A stretch of DNA of 64,000 nucleotides from positions 62,001 to 126,000 of the forward strand of contig JARFXR010000002.1 of the NCBI GenBank assembly GCA_029194535.1, in the 5' to 3' direction. Below are positions 4,011-10,930 of this stretch, piece after piece. Origin of the DNA: Nitrospira sp. GTDB taxonomy: Bacteria; Nitrospirota; Nitrospiria; Nitrospirales; Nitrospiraceae. Below the pieces are notes generated by a model. The model did not search any database. It was given only the letters and a program-made list of their open reading frames with translations, and had not been told where the DNA came from. Numbering within the stretch: the first letter of the stretch is position 1; every line of letters starts with the position of its first letter. A program made the translations under genes and the position numbers.

Positions 4011-5306
4011 TCAGCACTGAAGATCAGCGGTTCGAGAACGGCCCGCTAGGCGGGCCATCCCTCGACGAGCCTGTTTGGCCAGGGGCAATCTGGCGGTCCA
4101 TGACCGGAGAGGTTGCACCGTCCGCGCCAACCGCTGCAGAAATCGGCGCTGGCGGAACCATTCAGGTGGGTCATGGACCACGCGATGATCGTCGCGGCAG
4201 AGGGCGAGCGCGTAGCGCCACTGCTCCAGCCTAGTATCTTTCAGCGCATAATACAATGCCGGCCCATCGTGCTCGTCGATTCCGTCCTCCGGCTGGAAGA
4301 GCAGGCTTTTCGGCATGCGCGCCGCCAGGCCCAGTACGTCTGGGTCGGCCCGGACTGCCGCCCACAGGGCTGGAGGCAGCGCGGTATTCATCGTCTGCTG
4401 CGCCAGTCTCAATCCGAGCAGCAACATGCGCCGGCACTTCCATCCCTTCGCTGCTGACCATACCCGATCCCAGTCCAATGTTCGCGTCCGAATCAAGGCG
4501 GCCACGTCCACGATCCATTTCAGTCTCTCCCACGCGTGTTTCGAGCCGTGCACGCACAAAATGATCAGGAGTTCCTCGGGGGCGATGGTGCTGAGCCGTC
4601 CGCCGTCGACAGACAGGGAAACCTGCCGCTCCCAAATGTCGGATCGATCCAGCCGGAAAGAGAATTGCTCGTGGGCCATAACCCATTGCAGATCCACCAG
4701 CAGACGACTCGTCTCGTGCACGTAGAGATGATATGGTTCATCGTAGTGCGCGGCCTGAAATGACTCACGGGACTGACGCAGGGCCCGGTATCCATGAGCC
4801 GACAAGATCTTCTGCGCCTCGGCCAAGCGAGCTTGCGGCACGATGAAATCCAGATCGTCGAAATCTCGAAGATTCGCGTTTTCATATGCCATCGCGGCGA
4901 GAGTGGCGCCCTTGAACGGGATGGCCGGCAGGCCCCTCTGTTCGAATGCGCGGCTGATCCGGACCGTCTCGCGGGCCAAGGCTCCGTTCAGCAACATCCC
5001 GGCCTGCGTCACCCGGCGAAGCGCCGTCAACGTCGCGGGAGGAACTAGGTCCGCGCAGGTCGCGGTGATCGACCGCCACAGCAGCGGACCGACCCCATGA
5101 AACCGGGCGAGGTCGAGCACCAACGTCCAATTGAGCGACTCCAAGTCCGTTTCTCTCACACGCTGTCGAACCGGGTCGCTTAGCGACGCGCGGGCACACA
5201 GCAGGATGAATCTCGCCTCGGAAAACCGGGACGATGCCGCCGCCCTCTTCAATCCGGAGATCGAAGCGAGCGGGGTTTCTAACTGATCAGACGGTTCCTG
5301 CATCAT
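4011..5306 (-). CDS. Nucleotidyltransferase-family protein of the kind found in lasso/HprK peptide clusters
   Basis: The 431-residue protein matches the NTP_transf_5 type (Pfam family from memory). The signature is PFKGATLAAMAY near residues 130-140, then LRDFDDLDFIV with acidic residues D148, D150, D151 and D153 arranged like a polymerase-beta-fold active site. Helical flanks follow, including HGSKHAWERLKWIVDVA. Members of this family recur beside lasso-peptide and HprK-related genes in other bacteria (established association); their substrate is not generally known. The start ATG overlaps the stop of the upstream desaturase gene. It may nucleotidylate the peptide or a partner protein; that is inference. 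Confidence 0.8.
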   Translation of the reverse strand: MMQEPSDQLETPLASISGLKRAAASSRFSEARFILLCARASLSDPVRQRVRETDLESLNWTLVLDLARFHGVGPLLWRSITATCADLVPPATLTALRRVTQAGMLLNGALARETVRISRAFEQRGLPAIPFKGATLAAMAYENANLRDFDDLDFIVPQARLAEAQKILSAHGYRALRQSRESFQAAHYDEPYHLYVHETSRLLVDLQWVMAHEQFSFRLDRSDIWERQVSLSVDGGRLSTIAPEELLIILCVHGSKHAWERLKWIVDVAALIRTRTLDWDRVWSAAKGWKCRRMLLLGLRLAQQTMNTALPPALWAAVRADPDVLGLAARMPKSLLFQPEDGIDEHDGPALYYALKDTRLEQWRYALALCRDDHRVVHDPPEWFRQRRFLQRLARTVQPLRSWTARLPLAKQARRGMARLAGRSRTADLQC

Positions 5307-6340
5307 CCCCTCCTGTTTTCCAAGCGCGCCGGGGTCTGAAACGCCCTCACGAACGGCAACAGATAGAGTCGGGACACAGAAGTGAATTCGTGACGGTCGG
5401 AACTAGGAAGCCCCACGTCCAACGTCTCCCGCTTCCCGGGTATGTATAACGTCCCAAACAGCGCATCCCAGACGGCCAGCTTCACCGCAAAGTTCTTGTT
5501 CCAATGATGCGCCGCCGCGCTGTGATGAATCTGATGGTGCGCCGGGCTCATGAATACTCGATTCAGGACCGGTCCGTAGGAAAACCAGAGGTGGGAATGC
5601 CGTAAGTGGGACCCCAAGATGCCGGAGAGAAACGTGAATATACTGACGCCGAACACCATGGTAATCCGCTGATCCTCCCCCAGGAGGTTCTGGTAAAAGA
5701 CCGCGGTCATCCCCACGACGGGCGCTTGAACGGCCGCGAAGGTGAGAATCTCGACCGGATGCACCCGAAACGCCGTGACCGGCGTCAGCACCTCTGCGGA
5801 ATGATGGACCCGATGAAACATCCACAGCAGCGGAATGCGGTGGAACAGCACGTGAGTCCAGTAATTGATAAAGTCGTGCAGCACGAAAAATCCGGCTGCC
5901 GCCGCCACGATCCCCGCTGGAGAGAGCACGCTCGGCGGCTTCCATCCCCAACCCCCGACCACAAGCGCCGTCATCGCTTTCGCTCCGAGCAGCCCGATGC
6001 CGGTCATGATCGGCATGTACAGCAAGAACTGAAGCACCAGATCGCAGACTCCGAATTGCCAATCGAGCCTCGTCGAGGGGTGCTGATACAGCTGCGCGGG
6101 AAACGCAAACTCGCCGAACGATCGGTCCCCTGCTGTTCCGTGGCGCTTGACCGCCGCGAACAGCATCCAGGCGATCACCAGGCTGGACACGAGATACGGC
6201 CAAGCAAGAGGGTGCGACAGATCCAGGAACACCGTCGGAATCTGTGAGACTGCCGCGAGCACGTTCGACCACGAGGACACCGCTCCCAACCCGTACTCCG
6301 TCGCCCGCTCGACGAACCATGTGATCGCTTCAATCGCCAT
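5303..6340 (-). CDS. Sterol desaturase / fatty acid hydroxylase family membrane oxygenase
   Basis: The 345-residue membrane protein has the histidine boxes of the di-iron fatty acid hydroxylase superfamily: HDFINYWTH, HRVHHS and HHQIHHS, embedded among hydrophobic segments (LAWPYLVSSLVIAWMLFAAV; AGIVAAAAGFFVL). Family members insert oxygen into lipids or sterols at the membrane. It starts only six bases after the HprK-like stop and its own stop overlaps the nucleotidyltransferase start, so it is firmly inside the peptide operon. Such an enzyme could hydroxylate a lipid attached to, or exported with, the product, or could simply be co-regulated. The substrate cannot be inferred. Confidence 0.9.
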   Translation of the reverse strand: MAIEAITWFVERATEYGLGAVSSWSNVLAAVSQIPTVFLDLSHPLAWPYLVSSLVIAWMLFAAVKRHGTAGDRSFGEFAFPAQLYQHPSTRLDWQFGVCDLVLQFLLYMPIMTGIGLLGAKAMTALVVGGWGWKPPSVLSPAGIVAAAAGFFVLHDFINYWTHVLFHRIPLLWMFHRVHHSAEVLTPVTAFRVHPVEILTFAAVQAPVVGMTAVFYQNLLGEDQRITMVFGVSIFTFLSGILGSHLRHSHLWFSYGPVLNRVFMSPAHHQIHHSAAAHHWNKNFAVKLAVWDALFGTLYIPGKRETLDVGLPSSDRHEFTSVSRLYLLPFVRAFQTPARLENRRG

Positions 6341-6346
6341 CGACGC

Positions 6347-7381
6347 TCAAGCGCTCTTACGCAGTTCCAGAAGCGGTTTGATCAACTGGGGCAAGTCCAG
6401 AATGTCGCGCCCGAAATGCAGGCGGTAGCTGTCCGACTGCTGGACCAGTTTCGATAACGCGTGGAACTCACGCCGCGCCACCGCCTGGTCGTAGACCAAC
6501 ATTCCCTGCGGCATAAGCGCTTCCAGCGCCCGGCTCTTCGCCAAGGGTTCCAGGCAGCTGTGCGGCATATCGACCACGTGCGGAAACATGATGATGGCAG
6601 GTACGCAGGACGACCCCACGGAATCAGCGTAGAGATCTTCGGCGTAGAAAAACTTCTTGCAGATCCCCTGTTGCAACAGCCCGGCCGGCGCGGTTCTGAT
6701 CTCCGGAAAGAATTCCACGCTATGGTCGGTGACGTCGATCTTCATCGGGAAGGCCAGGATCTCCATGTGACCGCCGAGATCACGGAGGAGGGGATAGTCA
6801 TCGGACAGATACCGGAACCCCGAACGAAGCAGGGACAGAAACGCCGTGGTCTTTCCTTGGCCGCTGTAGCCCGGAATCAGTACGCCACGGCCCTGATACT
6901 CCAGAGCGGTCGCATGGACCGTGAACAACCCCCGCCGCTTGAGCAGCTCCGTGAGCGCGAAATGAAAGAAACTCGTGCAGACATCCGCGTGCATCGCCTC
7001 CGGATTGATAAAATAGCCATCGGCCGTTCCCAGGGCTCCGTCGATCACGAGCAGTCCTTGATCGTGAAAGTCTGCGACCAGCCGGTCCCTGTCCTGAATC
7101 ACATCACAACGCCAGATGGACCGTAGCGAGTCCCCCATCGACGGCCTGGTCCCGGAAAACAATGTCGTGATCGTCTTCGAGGGTCGATACGGAATATCCG
7201 CCCTTGTGCCGACCTCTTCGAAGCGAACCGTCAGGACCGTGTTTCCTGGGGCCGACTCGGCCCGATAATGCCGAAGAAACGCCAGAACTGGCGCGGCCAA
7301 CGTGATGGACGATGCGTGATAGTGCAGTTCGATCCCGTGGAAGGTGAACACGTAGTCGTGAGCCTGGTTCGCTGCAAACAT
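6347..7381 (-). CDS. HprK-related serine kinase of peptide-modification clusters
   Basis: The predicted 344-residue protein contains a P-loop GYSGQGKTT (residues about 171-179), preceded by the beta strand HATALEYQGRGVLIP and followed by FRYLSDDYPLL, the same order as the catalytic core of HPr kinase/phosphorylase. The N-terminal part is the variable region typical of HprK-related proteins in lasso-peptide loci. In the paeninodin lasso system an HprK homologue phosphorylates a serine of the peptide (established). The precursor here has one serine in its C-terminal segment (S33). I chose ATG 7381, which has AAGAGG six bases upstream. The longer frame uses a TTG at 7474 and would have to read through a strong hairpin. 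Confidence 0.85.
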   Translation of the reverse strand: MFAANQAHDYVFTFHGIELHYHASSITLAAPVLAFLRHYRAESAPGNTVLTVRFEEVGTRADIPYRPSKTITTLFSGTRPSMGDSLRSIWRCDVIQDRDRLVADFHDQGLLVIDGALGTADGYFINPEAMHADVCTSFFHFALTELLKRRGLFTVHATALEYQGRGVLIPGYSGQGKTTAFLSLLRSGFRYLSDDYPLLRDLGGHMEILAFPMKIDVTDHSVEFFPEIRTAPAGLLQQGICKKFFYAEDLYADSVGSSCVPAIIMFPHVVDMPHSCLEPLAKSRALEALMPQGMLVYDQAVARREFHALSKLVQQSDSYRLHFGRDILDLPQLIKPLLELRKSA

Positions 7382-7420
7382 CTCATACCTCTTCTTGTCG
7401 CACATGCCGGCACTACCAGT

Positions 7421-7483: not shown

Positions 7484-7603
7484 TTAATTGTCATTGACCT
7501 TATCGCTGAACTTCTCCCGATACTTGTTACCGGTGATGTCGCGCAGCAATGCGTGAATCGTCAGCACAGGCTCCGTATAGGATTCCTTCTGATGAACGTC
7601 CAT
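7484..7603 (-). CDS. Candidate RiPP precursor peptide, 39 residues
   Basis: ATG at 7603, TAA at 7484, with an excellent AAAGGAGGTG ribosome site that overlaps the stop of the PqqD-like gene. Residues Y9, P12, L14 and T24 have the exact spacing of the lasso leader motif Y-x-x-P-x-L-x-x-x-G-x(5)-T, with Ala18 in the Gly position. After T24-G25 comes a 14-residue tail N-KYRE-KFSD-KVND-N, which is three tandem K-x-x-[E/D] tetrads with one serine. In lasso systems the Thr is at position -2, so the core would begin at N26. The Lys/acid pairs are what an ATP-grasp ligase would need for omega-amide cross-links, as in graspetides. The leader match is seen; cross-linking is inference. Confidence 0.8.
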   Translation of the reverse strand: MDVHQKESYTEPVLTIHALLRDITGNKYREKFSDKVNDN

Positions 7604-7609
7604 TCGTCT

Positions 7610-8065
7610 TCACCTCCTTTCCAGTGTTAAGAGTCCCTCGTGACCCAGTTGGGTGACGAGAGCCAGCAGATCGTCGGCGATGCGCTCGGGTGAAGCGTTG
7701 TATCTGGCGCACAGCGCCGTATGAATGTCGTGCAGGGATTCGTTTCCCGTACACCGCTCCCACACGGCGGACCCCACGCGATTGAGCGTGTAGTACCGTC
7801 CGCTGGTAAAATCCAGCAGCACGGTCTCCCCATCCAAGGTCGTGCCCTGCACATTAGTACTGAGCCGCGGAACCGCCGCCATCAATTCCTGGCGCTTCTG
7901 TTGGTTCCCGCGTTCGATTTGCCTCTGCTCCTCCTGACTCAGCAGGCTGCGGGCGGCTTCCGCCAGCTGTTCCGTTCCGGCGGATGCGTCGACCGCAGGC
8001 CACTCCGCTTCCCCCCCCTCCACGTTCGGTCTCAAATCGGCAGTAATGAACGGTTGTCTGCTCAT
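7610..8065 (-). CDS. PqqD-like leader-recognition protein (lasso B1 / RRE type)
   Basis: The 151-residue product ends in a PqqD-like domain (residues about 65-149): LDGETVLLDFTSGRYYTLN, RVGSAVWERC, then IHTALCARYNASPERIADDL and a last strand GLLTLERR. PqqD-like domains bind leader peptides of RiPPs and present them to modifying enzymes. The first 60 residues are a Glu/Gln-rich extension not found in minimal lasso B1 proteins. ATG 8065 was chosen because AAGGAGGAACG precedes it; the frame extends 49 codons further upstream with Arg-rich, non-coding-like sequence. Its stop TGA is part of the precursor ribosome site, so the leader binder and precursor are translated together. Confidence 0.88.
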   Translation of the reverse strand: MSRQPFITADLRPNVEGGEAEWPAVDASAGTEQLAEAARSLLSQEEQRQIERGNQQKRQELMAAVPRLSTNVQGTTLDGETVLLDFTSGRYYTLNRVGSAVWERCTGNESLHDIHTALCARYNASPERIADDLLALVTQLGHEGLLTLERR

Positions 8066-8159
8066 GATCGACGTTCCTCCTTTTCCCCCTCGCGCACATC
8101 CCATGATCAGCGCGTTCCGTTTCCTTTTTCGCCTCTCCGTGGAGCGTCTGCCCGACTCT

Positions 8160-9071
8160 TCACGTCGTGCCGCGCGTGGTTCCCGCGCAGAGTAGATCGG
8201 CCAAGGCATCACCCATCCGCTGTCCGGTATGATTTTCGAACAGCGTAAATGCCGGACTCGTGTTCACTTCGAAGCAGTAATAGGCGCCGTCCGGTGTACG
8301 GCGAAGATCGATCCCGCTCAGACTCAGGCCGATCCCCTTCACGAGATCCAGACACATTGACTGGATCGCCGGAGGCAACTCGACGGCCCGCATGCTGCGA
8401 CGGTCGCACCCCGCTTCTGCATACCGGTAATCCACAGCATCGGCAATCACCTCGGTGGCGAAGAGTCGTTCCCCGACCGTGTGCACGCGCAGGTCCGTGC
8501 CGGGAATCATTTCCTGAAACTGTGTGGGACAATCTCGGATCAGATCGAGACGCGCAAAATCGTCCCGGGTCAGCCGCTTCACGATCGACCGCTCCCCACT
8601 GATCGATTTGTAGATGACGCGGCCTCGACACTCCTCGTAAAAGGCACGAGCTGCTTCCGGCACCATCGTCACCAGGGTGTTGGGGACCCGAAACCCATAC
8701 CGCTCGATCAGCTGCAGCTGATAAGGCTTCGACATATTCGTATGTGATGCCTGTCTTCGGTTCACGACGAGAACGGGCAGACTCTCCGTGAATTCCCACA
8801 GGGAGGTGACGGCCATGTACGTGGCCGGCGTCGACGTACCACGACTGGTCATCGCGCGAAGATAGACCGAGTCGATCTCCTCCGCGTGAAGAATCCGGTT
8901 TCCCAGGCTGATCCGGTCCAAGGCGCGGCCGTCTTCAATCGACCACGACAGATTCCAGATTCCGCCGTCGGAATCCGGATGGACGAGCATCAATTCAGCG
9001 TTCCGGACTGCCAGTCTGGCACAGATGTTGGCCAACACCGGGTCCGCCATCGGCCCCACGAGCAGAATCAT
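8160..9071 (-). CDS. ATP-grasp ligase (RimK/graspetide-synthetase-like), apparently active copy
   Basis: The 303-residue protein has the features of a RimK-like ATP-grasp enzyme: SKPYQLQLIERYGFRVPNTL entering the central domain, lysine K155 in VIYKSISGERS, QEMIPGTDLRVHTVGE with E187, D193 and R195, and the metal-binding end GIDLRRTPDGAYYCFEVNTS with E268 and N270. ATP-grasp ligases join a carboxylate to an amine or hydroxyl via acyl phosphate, and in graspetides form side-chain esters or amides in a peptide. The gene starts inside the 3' end of the other ATP-grasp gene (77-base overlap) and precedes the PqqD-like gene. It is the best candidate for the peptide-modifying enzyme. Confidence 0.87.
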   Translation of the reverse strand: MILLVGPMADPVLANICARLAVRNAELMLVHPDSDGGIWNLSWSIEDGRALDRISLGNRILHAEEIDSVYLRAMTSRGTSTPATYMAVTSLWEFTESLPVLVVNRRQASHTNMSKPYQLQLIERYGFRVPNTLVTMVPEAARAFYEECRGRVIYKSISGERSIVKRLTRDDFARLDLIRDCPTQFQEMIPGTDLRVHTVGERLFATEVIADAVDYRYAEAGCDRRSMRAVELPPAIQSMCLDLVKGIGLSLSGIDLRRTPDGAYYCFEVNTSPAFTLFENHTGQRMGDALADLLCAGTTRGTT

Positions 9072-9990
9072 AAAAAGCCGGACTCCTCGGTTCAGACAAA
9101 TAATCGGCGAGACGCCGCACGAGTCGACGCTGCACCGCTCGGGTACAGCGCCAATAGTTGGGGGGGCCGTTTACATCAAGACAGTAGCTCCCTCCGTCAG
9201 GAGTGACGACCACTTGGCACTCGGCGAAGGTCAAACCCAACGCGCGGACCAGATCCACACACTGCCCGGTCGGAAGCGCCGGCAGGTCGGCGCCCTGCAA
9301 GAACACTTCTTCGTCGGCGTGGAGGATGGTTGCCGCTGCGTCCTCTCCCACGACATAGACGGTCATTCGTTGACCCTGCGGTACGGCCTGGAGCGAAACA
9401 GCGTGGCGCTCCATCATGTGACGAATTTGCTCGATCCCGTTCCACCGACAGAGAACGAGTCCCGGCTCCACTGATCCCAACGGCTTGAGGTACGCCCGTT
9501 CTCCCCAAGCCGAGAATTGCCGAACGGCATCGGCCTGGCTGGAAGTATAACGGGCGACCGGGAGATCAAACCCATAGGCCCGCGCGATCCGTGAAAGCGC
9601 CGCGCTCCCCCCGAGCAGAGCAGGACGTCCCCCCGGTATCGGTCGGTTGACCACGGTGCAGGGAATGCTGTTCAAGAACGCGATCCACGTCGCCGTGGTT
9701 TCACGGAGAACGTACTCGCGGTCGTGAGCGGCGAGCTCGTCGAGGACCAGCGGCAACGGGAGGACCCACTGGACGAACACTCCGCGAAGGGTGCTGCACT
9801 CGATAGATCGGTCGTCGATGACCAGTGCGCCCGTCATGGTGGGAGAGCCGGCCATGATCGACCAATTCAGCCGGATCCTGTCCAGGAGTTCGGCCCGGGG
9901 AATCAGGAGCACGTCCAGTCCACGCCGGCCCAGCTCCGCATGTACGAGTGACGCCCAGGGGTCGGTCGTATCGGCCAGCACCAGCACCAC
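8995..9990 (-). CDS. Second ATP-grasp-fold protein, divergent active site
   Basis: About 331 residues, homologous in layout to the neighbouring ATP-grasp protein: CTVVNRPIPGGRPALLGGSA, then AYLKP with the ATP lysine, QAVPQGQRMTVYVVGE, and the C-terminal VVTPDGGSYCLDVNGPPNYW. Aligned to the neighbour, the segment equivalent to QEMIPGTDLRVHTVGE has lost the Glu, Asp and Arg. The metal-site Glu is Asp. It may therefore be a non-catalytic partner or a specialised ligase. GTG 9990 is preferred as start (TGGGAGGA ten bases upstream) over TTG 10050, because the extra 20 residues look unlike the fold start VVLVLADTTDPW. The last ~25 residues overlap the next gene and are probably disordered. Confidence 0.8.
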   Translation of the reverse strand: MVLVLADTTDPWASLVHAELGRRGLDVLLIPRAELLDRIRLNWSIMAGSPTMTGALVIDDRSIECSTLRGVFVQWVLPLPLVLDELAAHDREYVLRETTATWIAFLNSIPCTVVNRPIPGGRPALLGGSAALSRIARAYGFDLPVARYTSSQADAVRQFSAWGERAYLKPLGSVEPGLVLCRWNGIEQIRHMMERHAVSLQAVPQGQRMTVYVVGEDAAATILHADEEVFLQGADLPALPTGQCVDLVRALGLTFAECQVVVTPDGGSYCLDVNGPPNYWRCTRAVQRRLVRRLADYLSEPRSPAFYDSARGADGGPGVGQHLCQTGSPER

Positions 9991-10294
9991 GTTCGAGCGC
10001 TCCTCCCATCGGACCGGATCAGCTTCAGGCCGGTCGCAGATAACCCGCAAGGTCTCGCCGACTTTTGAGCAGAGTAGGTCAGTAACCGGATTCTTCCTAG
10101 CTCCCTGGAAGCTGGGATAGAGCCCTACTTTGGCAGGTCAGTACTACTGCGTGGAGTGATGGATCGGACCGTCTGGACGAACTTCTTCGCGAAAACTGGA
10201 AACATCTGGAAACGGGATGTTCGGCTGGACTGATTGAAAAGACGGCGGGGTGACGGATTGCGGGTCGAGCCTCAACGGCGCGGAGATACGGAAG
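9991..10294. other. Intergenic stretch within the peptide operon
   Basis: About 300 bases separate the protease-like gene from the ATP-grasp genes. The only open frame of note is the low-complexity one at 10144-10359. Otherwise I see no promoter, riboswitch or RNA gene. The spacing leaves room for an internal promoter. Confidence 0.5.
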
Positions 10295-10359
10295 TCATGC
10301 CACGCGTGCAGAGCCTTCAGGCGAAGGCCGTTTCTTCGTCTCGTCCTGTCCCGCCGCAA
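10144..10359 (-). CDS. Small ORF overlapping the B2-like gene end; doubtful
   Basis: A 71-codon frame on the operon strand with a Pro/Ser-rich second half (VTPPSFQSVQPNIPFPDVSS). Its first 65 bases lie inside the B2-like gene and no Shine-Dalgarno sequence precedes the ATG. It could be a second peptide substrate or the out-of-frame remnant of a longer B2 C-terminus. The Arg-rich N-terminus argues for a chance frame. Kept only because the location, between maturation genes, is where a second precursor could sit. Confidence 0.2.
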   Translation of the reverse strand: MRRDRTRRRNGLRLKALHAWHDFRISAPLRLDPQSVTPPSFQSVQPNIPFPDVSSFREEVRPDGPIHHSTQ

Positions 10360-10765
10360 GCTCGGGATACGAGAAGGTCACCGTGTACTGGCGCCATTGT
10401 TCGCTCAGCTCGTGAAACGGTTCCTGATCAAGTGTGAGCCATGCATGGCCATCGAGATTCGAGCCTTCCCTCCTGATCCCACAACAAAAGCGGACGGGGC
10501 GGCCGGCCCGCCTGGTCAACCAGTAGAGGGCCAACGCCCGGGGGAAACAGTTGCCTTTGGTATTGTAGGGAAACCGTTCGAGCCAGCGATCCACATAATA
10601 GATGCGGAGTTCCAACGTGGAGATGTCGCGACAGCCGGCCTCCGCCCCGCGGTTCAGCAGGTCCAGGACTTGGGGCAGACTTCTCCACCTCAGCAGGAGC
10701 CGCACAGTACACAGGAGGAGCCCCACGCCGGCTATGGTCCGGTATTTCGACAGCAGCCGAATCAT
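10295..10765 (-). CDS. Lasso-peptide B2-type transglutaminase-like leader protease
   Basis: The predicted 156-residue protein matches the B2 family of lasso-peptide maturation proteases. A Cys in GNCFPRALALYWLTRRAG (C73) and a His in DGHAWLTLD (H107), with a following Asp (D113) and the family Gly-rich VRFCCGIRREG strand, give a Cys-His-Asp arrangement. B2 proteins cut the leader just after the residue following the conserved Thr, in concert with a PqqD-like B1 protein (established). The ATG 10765 begins MIRLLSKYRTIAGVGLLL, a hydrophobic start usual in this family. It is the first gene after purF on the same strand, about 165 bases away, so the operon may begin here or read through from purF. 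Confidence 0.87.
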   Translation of the reverse strand: MIRLLSKYRTIAGVGLLLCTVRLLLRWRSLPQVLDLLNRGAEAGCRDISTLELRIYYVDRWLERFPYNTKGNCFPRALALYWLTRRAGRPVRFCCGIRREGSNLDGHAWLTLDQEPFHELSEQWRQYTVTFSYPELAAGQDETKKRPSPEGSARVA

Positions 10766-10930
10766 GATCGACTCAGTGTAGCAGGACGGAGAGGGAAATC
10801 CAGCGTTCGCGCCCTGCGCTGACGACATACGGACCGCTCGAGAGCATCTCTCGCGCACTGTTACCCTATGACGAAGCAAAGGTGGGCTCGGGGATCGGAA
10901 CCGGCTGCGAGAAGCAGCCGACAGCGGCCG

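Follow-up and report, generated by a model that had tools for sequence, protein, structure and literature searches.

Among the described systems closest to the one reported here, corallotide (graspetide group 15, Corallococcus, CorA/CorB) contains repeated Lys-to-acid lactams and has a synthetase of the TIGR04187 family (PMC13097080). In its available text, the same source describes plesiocin- and microviridin-type links as forming cages or hairpins, and also partner-dependent graspetides, whose partners are other kinds of protein. The bsf phosphorylated lasso cluster (BsfA/B1/B2/K) encodes a kinase, BsfK, that phosphorylates core Ser3, and the accessible part of the same paper gives the geometry of a lasso leader as YxxPxL at -17 to -12 together with a specified residue at -2 (PMC10368454). 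Branch 8 of a survey of ATP-grasp proteins is described as having a truncated, inactive ATP-grasp partner and peptidases nearby, and the excerpted survey reports that its precursor was not found (PMC8939145).

The window, the whole stretch of 64,000 nucleotides from Nitrospira sp. that was analysed, carries a cluster whose features are, in the order of transcription:

10295..10879, minus strand: B2-type leader peptidase of transglutaminase fold (NF033537 lasso_biosyn_B2, 46.6 bits, over the cut-off of 33; Transglut_core3, 2e-18)
8995..10050, minus strand: G1, an ATP-grasp partner that has degenerated (its start is uncertain and could be a GTG near 9990)
8160..9071, minus strand: G2, predicted catalytic ATP-grasp protein of the graspetide-synthetase type (TIGR04187, E 3.5e-37)
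7610..8068, minus strand: PqqD-family RiPP recognition element with an N-terminal extension, lasso B1-like (Pfam PqqD, E 4.9e-19)
7529..7603, minus strand: precursor leader, residues 1-25, with Y9(-17)xxP12(-14)xL14(-12) and T24(-2), numbered back from a cut after G25
7487..7528, minus strand: core peptide NKYREKFSDKVNDN, with K-x-x-[E/D] pairs K27-E30, K31-D34 and K35-D38
6347..7405, minus strand: HprK-like kinase (HprK_rel_A, E 3.8e-14, under cut-off; start ATG at 7405 or 7381)
5303..6340, minus strand: fatty-acid-hydroxylase superfamily protein (PF04116, 8.4e-23)
4011..5306, minus strand: NTP_transf_5 nucleotidyltransferase (PF14907, 1.2e-60)

Judged by the curated NCBIfam cut-offs, the B2 match lies above, and the PqqD, kinase and ATP-grasp matches are significant yet below; for the PqqD protein the model is lasso_PqqD_Bac (2.4e-12). 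Pfam places a PqqD-fold domain in the cluster, and leader binding by this domain is predicted. The B1-type RRE, the B2 peptidase and a YxxPxL leader with Thr at -2 are lasso-peptide features, and the likeness to bsf, as far as the available text of that paper describes it, takes in the -17 to -12 spacing, the specified -2 residue, the RRE, the peptidase and a kinase (PMC10368454). Unlike bsf, the window cluster has no lasso cyclase, it has two ATP-grasp proteins, its core consists of paired Lys and acidic residues, and core residue 3 in the family is mostly Tyr or Ser.

The precursor ORF (7484-7603, minus strand) encodes 39 residues, MDVHQKESYTEPVLTIHALLRDITGNKYREKFSDKVNDN, and the stretch GGAAAGGAGGTGAAGACGAATG, with a Shine-Dalgarno-like AGGAGG, runs up to and covers its ATG. 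The first-pass annotation had read the tail after T24-G25 as N-KYRE-KFSD-KVND-N (residues 26-39) and had placed D34 at position 9 counting from N26; the translation agrees on both points. A precursor-profile search of all 175 sampled genomes of the window's family found the leader in 62, and since homologues with the same leader are this widespread, the precursor goes beyond chance. In 27 aligned homologues M1, K6, Y9, P12, L20, R21, D22 and T24 of the leader are invariant. We conclude that the 7484-7603 ORF is a genuine RiPP precursor.

Precursor loci were fetched from 45 of the 62 family genomes, together with two more distant clusters, L134 and L135, the latter identical in sequence to L042 of genome G300. 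A separate search with G2 in 395 genomes of the phylum gave a match at 1e-30 in 25. Where the relatives of the cluster have names, they are mostly metagenome-assembled Nitrospira. In the two relatives whose loci were read out (L032 and L033), an ABC transporter gene lies between B2 and G1; an Asn-synthetase gene had been expected in this gap of about 2 kb, and the expectation was abandoned once the gap gene proved to be the transporter. The transporter is absent from the corresponding interval of the window (10050-10295) and from L030, and no close copy of the exporter was found elsewhere in the window genome, where the best match has 31% identity. Since a dedicated ABC exporter is missing from this genome, the window copy of the cluster may be partly decayed. 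In most of the loci L032-L039, L087 and L088, a further type of precursor (GQSG...C..C or GQSGYNCDD...) lies next to a PqqD gene of its own and apparently uses the same B2 and exporter as the ATP-grasp half.

The fatty-acid-hydroxylase superfamily gene was found in none of the fetched loci without G1 and G2 and was seen in the ATP-grasp version of the cluster only. Two of the ATP-grasp clusters carry a GMC oxidoreductase with a partner resembling gluconate-dehydrogenase subunit 3 (L041:3360-5828, by Pfam; L134:5615-7918, by resemblance), and no hydroxylase was found in either.

TIGR04187, the family of the corallotide synthetase, is the best HMM of G2 (3.5e-37), followed by MvdD (3.6e-27) and MvdC (9.8e-24), all under their curated cut-offs. 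The closest solved structures are PsnB, MdnC, CdnC and AMdnB. A profile comparison with PsnB (7drm) gave an E value of 9.1e-41 and aligned SKPYQ, IYKS, GxDxRxH, DYR, GxDLR and FEVNxSP of G2 with the PsnB active-site motifs; we take these to be the ATP/Mg and catalytic motifs, and across 10 G2 sequences they show little or no variation. A structural model of G2 (pLDDT 82.8) matched PsnB with a TM score of 0.80. By sequence, G2 is a member of the graspetide-ligase family with a predicted intact active site. To our knowledge, the plesiocin/PsnB and microviridin/MdnC systems, whose synthetases are the closest solved ones, have no lasso-type leader, PqqD protein or B2 peptidase.

G1 aligns with G2 along its length (profile probability 99.7). 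It keeps the lysine of IYKS and, in the window copy, also the final Asn, but has lost the DYR segment as well as the residues of the GxDxRxH and GxDLR motifs. A sequence search of solved structures with G1 returned spurious matches, mainly to the proteasome, and these were discarded; a fold search resolved the protein, its model (pLDDT 77) matching graspetide ligases best, with CdnC (7mgv, TM 0.57) at the top. We infer that G1 is a decayed ATP-grasp protein, predicted to be non-catalytic. In other loci, G2 relatives adjoin a short ATP-grasp-like protein (225-278 aa in the five measured), and Peptidase_M6 accounts for two of the six tested proteins upstream of them, in two loci. These pairs, two with Peptidase_M6, and the loss of most catalytic motifs from G1 recall branch 8 as the survey's available text describes it; unlike branch 8, here G1 is full length and a precursor is evident, and the identity with that branch is by description only (PMC8939145). 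The window genome itself has a second ATP-grasp pair (G000:C3:234269-235147; L002 and L056), in which the partner is truncated; upstream of it lies a large protein with a Kelch match, and no precursor was recognised at that pair.

To compare cores, a precursor was assigned to the A set by eye, without use of its core, when its leader and position matched it to the PqqD gene beside G1 and G2. The A set comprises 30 distinct cores of 12-22 residues from 17 ATP-grasp clusters, of which 15 belong to the family and the other two are L134 and G300/L135. The control set comprises 62 distinct cores with the same leader, from clusters without G1 and G2 or belonging to the second PqqD gene of mixed clusters. 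In the A cores, Asp or Glu stands at +3 or +4 of Lys in 77 of 86 cases, compared with a shuffle mean of 24.0 and a result reached in 0 of 5000 shuffles; looked at from the other side, a Lys precedes the acid by three or four residues in 78 of 85 cases. The control cores give 7 of 56, with 8.8 expected. The pattern Kx(2,3)[DE] is present in 29/30 A cores versus 6/62 controls and in at least one core of each ATP-grasp cluster (17/17), and 16/30 A cores contain two Kxx[DE] units in tandem (shuffled mean 0.23). Since the A cores are related by descent, these shuffle odds overstate their independence, and nine mutually diverged cores were therefore also counted; in these, 25 of 27 Lys are paired, with 8.3 expected and 0 of 20000 shuffles reaching that number. 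Thus tight matching of Lys to acid accompanies the presence of the ATP-grasp genes.

Greedy pairing, with +3 tried before +4, gave 77 pairs in the 30 A cores: 34 K..D and 25 K..E at +3, and 18 K..E and no K..D at +4 (Fisher p 4.3e-6 for the Glu-only bias at +4, on related rows). No Lys or acid is left over in 16 of the 30 cores, and the window core, with three Lys and three acids, is fully paired. Of the nine Lys left without a partner in the set, seven occupy the spacer position of KYKE; KNPTP and KPGAIE account for the others. The pairing rule is kept under a shifted register in L041 (GNGVKYREKLLDKFSDVPL), with an added fourth pair in L040, and in the divergent core of L135 from another family of the order (KQYPEKNPKEDE). 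Counting against the rule, an A core from genome G117, GASGVSGGQCQSTSALNCVL, is devoid of both Lys and acid; its sister core has one pair, and cores with only one pair number 2 of 30. A recurrence of Lys and acid every four residues, claimed by the first-pass annotation, thus describes the window core and was given up as a strict rule, since 18 of the 77 pairs are at +4 and the number of pairs per core ranges from 0 to 4.

The 15 cores of the KYxEK type were used to compare columns. K27, Y28, E30 and K31 are present in 15/15, position 34 is acidic in 15/15 (D in 11, E in 4) and 12/15 keep K35, whereas positions 29, 32, 33, 36 and 37 are variable; the fixed residues are encoded by differing synonymous codons. 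Homologues next to the PqqD and ATP-grasp genes therefore show conserved Lys and acid columns with variable positions between them, as would be expected of cross-linked residues, the exception being the invariant Y28. The conserved pairing in the A cores also speaks for the three Lys-to-acid cross-links proposed for the window peptide, the partner of each Lys being the one that spacing suggests. An amine nucleophile with a carboxylate three or four residues further on would account for all of these pairing features. We therefore consider it probable (roughly 70%) that the 39-residue peptide is the precursor to a graspetide-like RiPP made on a lasso-type chassis, in which G2 would close tandem Lys-to-Asp/Glu lactams, three of them in the window peptide.

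The same K-x-x-[E/D] repeats would also set opposite charges about one turn apart, raising the possibility of an amphipathic helix held by salt bridges, with the core left unmodified and G1 and G2 working on something else. A need for charge or helix would permit Arg and would disfavour Pro and Gly. Contrary to this, Arg is not exchanged for Lys (an acid at +3 or +4 in only 1 of 15 A-core Arg) despite 242 Arg versus 76 Lys in eight window proteins, and Pro or Gly lies within 20 of the 77 K-x(2,3)-acid spans. The pairing is also directional, with an acid at -3 or -4 of Lys in only 11 of 86 cases against 77 in the forward direction, and it is at chance level in the 62 control cores, which have the same leader. 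The helix, which had been the null explanation, is accordingly disfavoured and we regard it as improbable.

An alternative that retains G2 as a cross-linking enzyme is that it joins Lys and acids with other partners, for example i to i+7 or in nested rings, so that the ladder register would be wrong. Nested hairpins and cages occur among known graspetides as described in the available text of PMC13097080, and in the A cores acids are also overrepresented at +7 (24) and +8 (19) from Lys, an excess that any period-four array must produce. Against another register, the +3/+4 spacing is kept in cores that are irregularly spaced or have a single pair (e.g. KALD and KAGSE), and the acid at +4 is always Glu, which suggests a local ring geometry. 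We think such a register unlikely.

The lasso features of the leader, PqqD protein and B2 peptidase also allow a product in which the N26 amine is joined to D34 and the tail is threaded, with an ATP-grasp protein in place of the usual cyclase. D34 is at position 9, as noted above, and an acid occupies core position 7-9 in 20 of the 30 A cores; yet 10 of the 30 lack one there, only 9 combine it with Gly1, and the pairing of nearly every Lys would be left unexplained. A PF00733 search of 46 genomes (18+28), with its tables read by eye, found no Asn-synthetase-type cyclase close to the window cluster or to any other ATP-grasp cluster in those genomes, and in L134 no lasso cyclase was recognised among the ORFs of 110 aa or more listed at 6-16 kb. 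Because PF00733 was not seen there, a lasso product was rejected for the ATP-grasp clusters, and the ring through D34 that the first-pass annotation had entertained is disfavoured; we rate it very unlikely. This rejection does not extend to G202, the one genome of the 46 with a PF00733 match about 5 kb or less from a precursor cluster. The match lies about 4 kb before the PqqD gene, at a locus (L126) without G1 and G2.

Loci L097-L126 in the window's family show a widespread lasso-like chassis of PqqD, HprK-like kinase, NTP_transf_5 and B2, often with an ABC gene. Their cores are short and variable, and no lasso cyclase was seen nearby except in G202. The product of this chassis is perhaps a phosphopeptide. 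Among the 30 cores of the A set, core residue 3 is Tyr in 16 and Ser in 11, and among the 62 control cores it is Ser in 47; by analogy with the action of BsfK on Ser3, this residue (Y28 in the window) may be a candidate phosphosite of the HprK-like kinase.

A reading in which G2, in the style of RimK or LysX, ligates free amino acids onto the termini or side chains of the core would draw on the ATP-grasp fold and on weaker RimK and LysX HMM matches, but it is scarcely credible, given a profile E value of about 1e-9 to 3e-10 for RimK against that of 9.1e-41 for PsnB and the matched Lys/acid pairs that it would leave unexplained.

If the ORF is indeed a graspetide-like precursor whose lactams are closed by G2, its maturation may proceed as follows. 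The PqqD RRE would bind the Y(-17)xxPxL leader, as lasso precedent suggests. Following the chemistry of graspetide synthetases (PMC13097080), G2 would use ATP to phosphorylate each core Asp or Glu, and the amine of a Lys three or four residues before would attack the activated acid to give an isopeptide lactam, with G1 as a probable non-catalytic partner that helps to hold substrate or enzyme. Three rounds on the window peptide would yield a ladder of K27-E30, K31-D34 and K35-D38, with a mass change of minus 54.03 Da. By calculation this would take the full precursor from 4603.313 to 4549.281 Da and the core from 1755.854 to 1701.822 Da. The B2 peptidase would then cut between G25 and N26, that is, after T-G or T-A in the family, and the kinase, nucleotidyltransferase and hydroxylase could add further changes. 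A helper role for G1 would fit the partner-dependent graspetides of PMC13097080, as far as its available text describes them. Lasso-type leader recognition by G2, if it occurs, has a consideration against it, namely that the characterised graspetides described in the accessible literature are not PqqD-guided.

The predicted product resembles corallotide, as presented in the available text of PMC13097080, in its repeated Lys-to-acid isopeptide lactams, TIGR04187 ATP-grasp protein and added oxygenase. Corallotide differs in having a KxxxD repeat, a precursor of about 22 kDa and a 2OG oxygenase, whereas here short cores have either acid at +3 and Glu alone at +4, and KxxxD accounts for 0 of the 77 pairs. 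Unlike corallotide, the present system also has a PqqD protein, a B2 peptidase, a kinase and a decayed ATP-grasp partner.

The literature searched on graspetides, lasso peptides, PqqD/RRE, ATP-grasp macrolactams and Nitrospira, with the supplement of PMC13097080 falling outside it, contained no description of this system, and a search for 'Nitrospira' with 'graspetide' returned 0 papers. Neither a PqqD-guided graspetide nor a K-x-x-[DE] ladder appears in the available text of PMC13097080, PMC8939145, PMC10368454, PMC12710340 or PMC13003496. Groups 33 and 39 of PMC13097080, which according to the excerpted text include transglutaminase-fold proteins, might contain relatives of this system.

We lean, with slight confidence, towards the view that the lasso-peptide chassis of RRE, B2 peptidase, kinase and exporter has been rewired in Nitrospira-related bacteria. 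A graspetide ligase and a catalytically dead ATP-grasp protein would have replaced the lasso cyclase and would join nearly every core Lys to the acid three or four residues further along. These clusters would then represent an RRE-guided graspetide class of ladder topology, and an orphan branch of ATP-grasp pairs, those with a truncated, inactive partner, would gain its first precursors. If this is true, the decayed ATP-grasp partners would acquire a testable role, and the ATP-grasp loci for which the survey, in its available text, found no precursor would have a candidate precursor family (PMC8939145). The pairing rule leads to exact mass predictions for many peptides and would amount to a simple encodable stapling code for short peptides, consisting of Lys, two or three free residues and Asp or Glu. 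Since the leader system is common with that of lasso peptides, the two RiPP toolkits would be naturally interchangeable.
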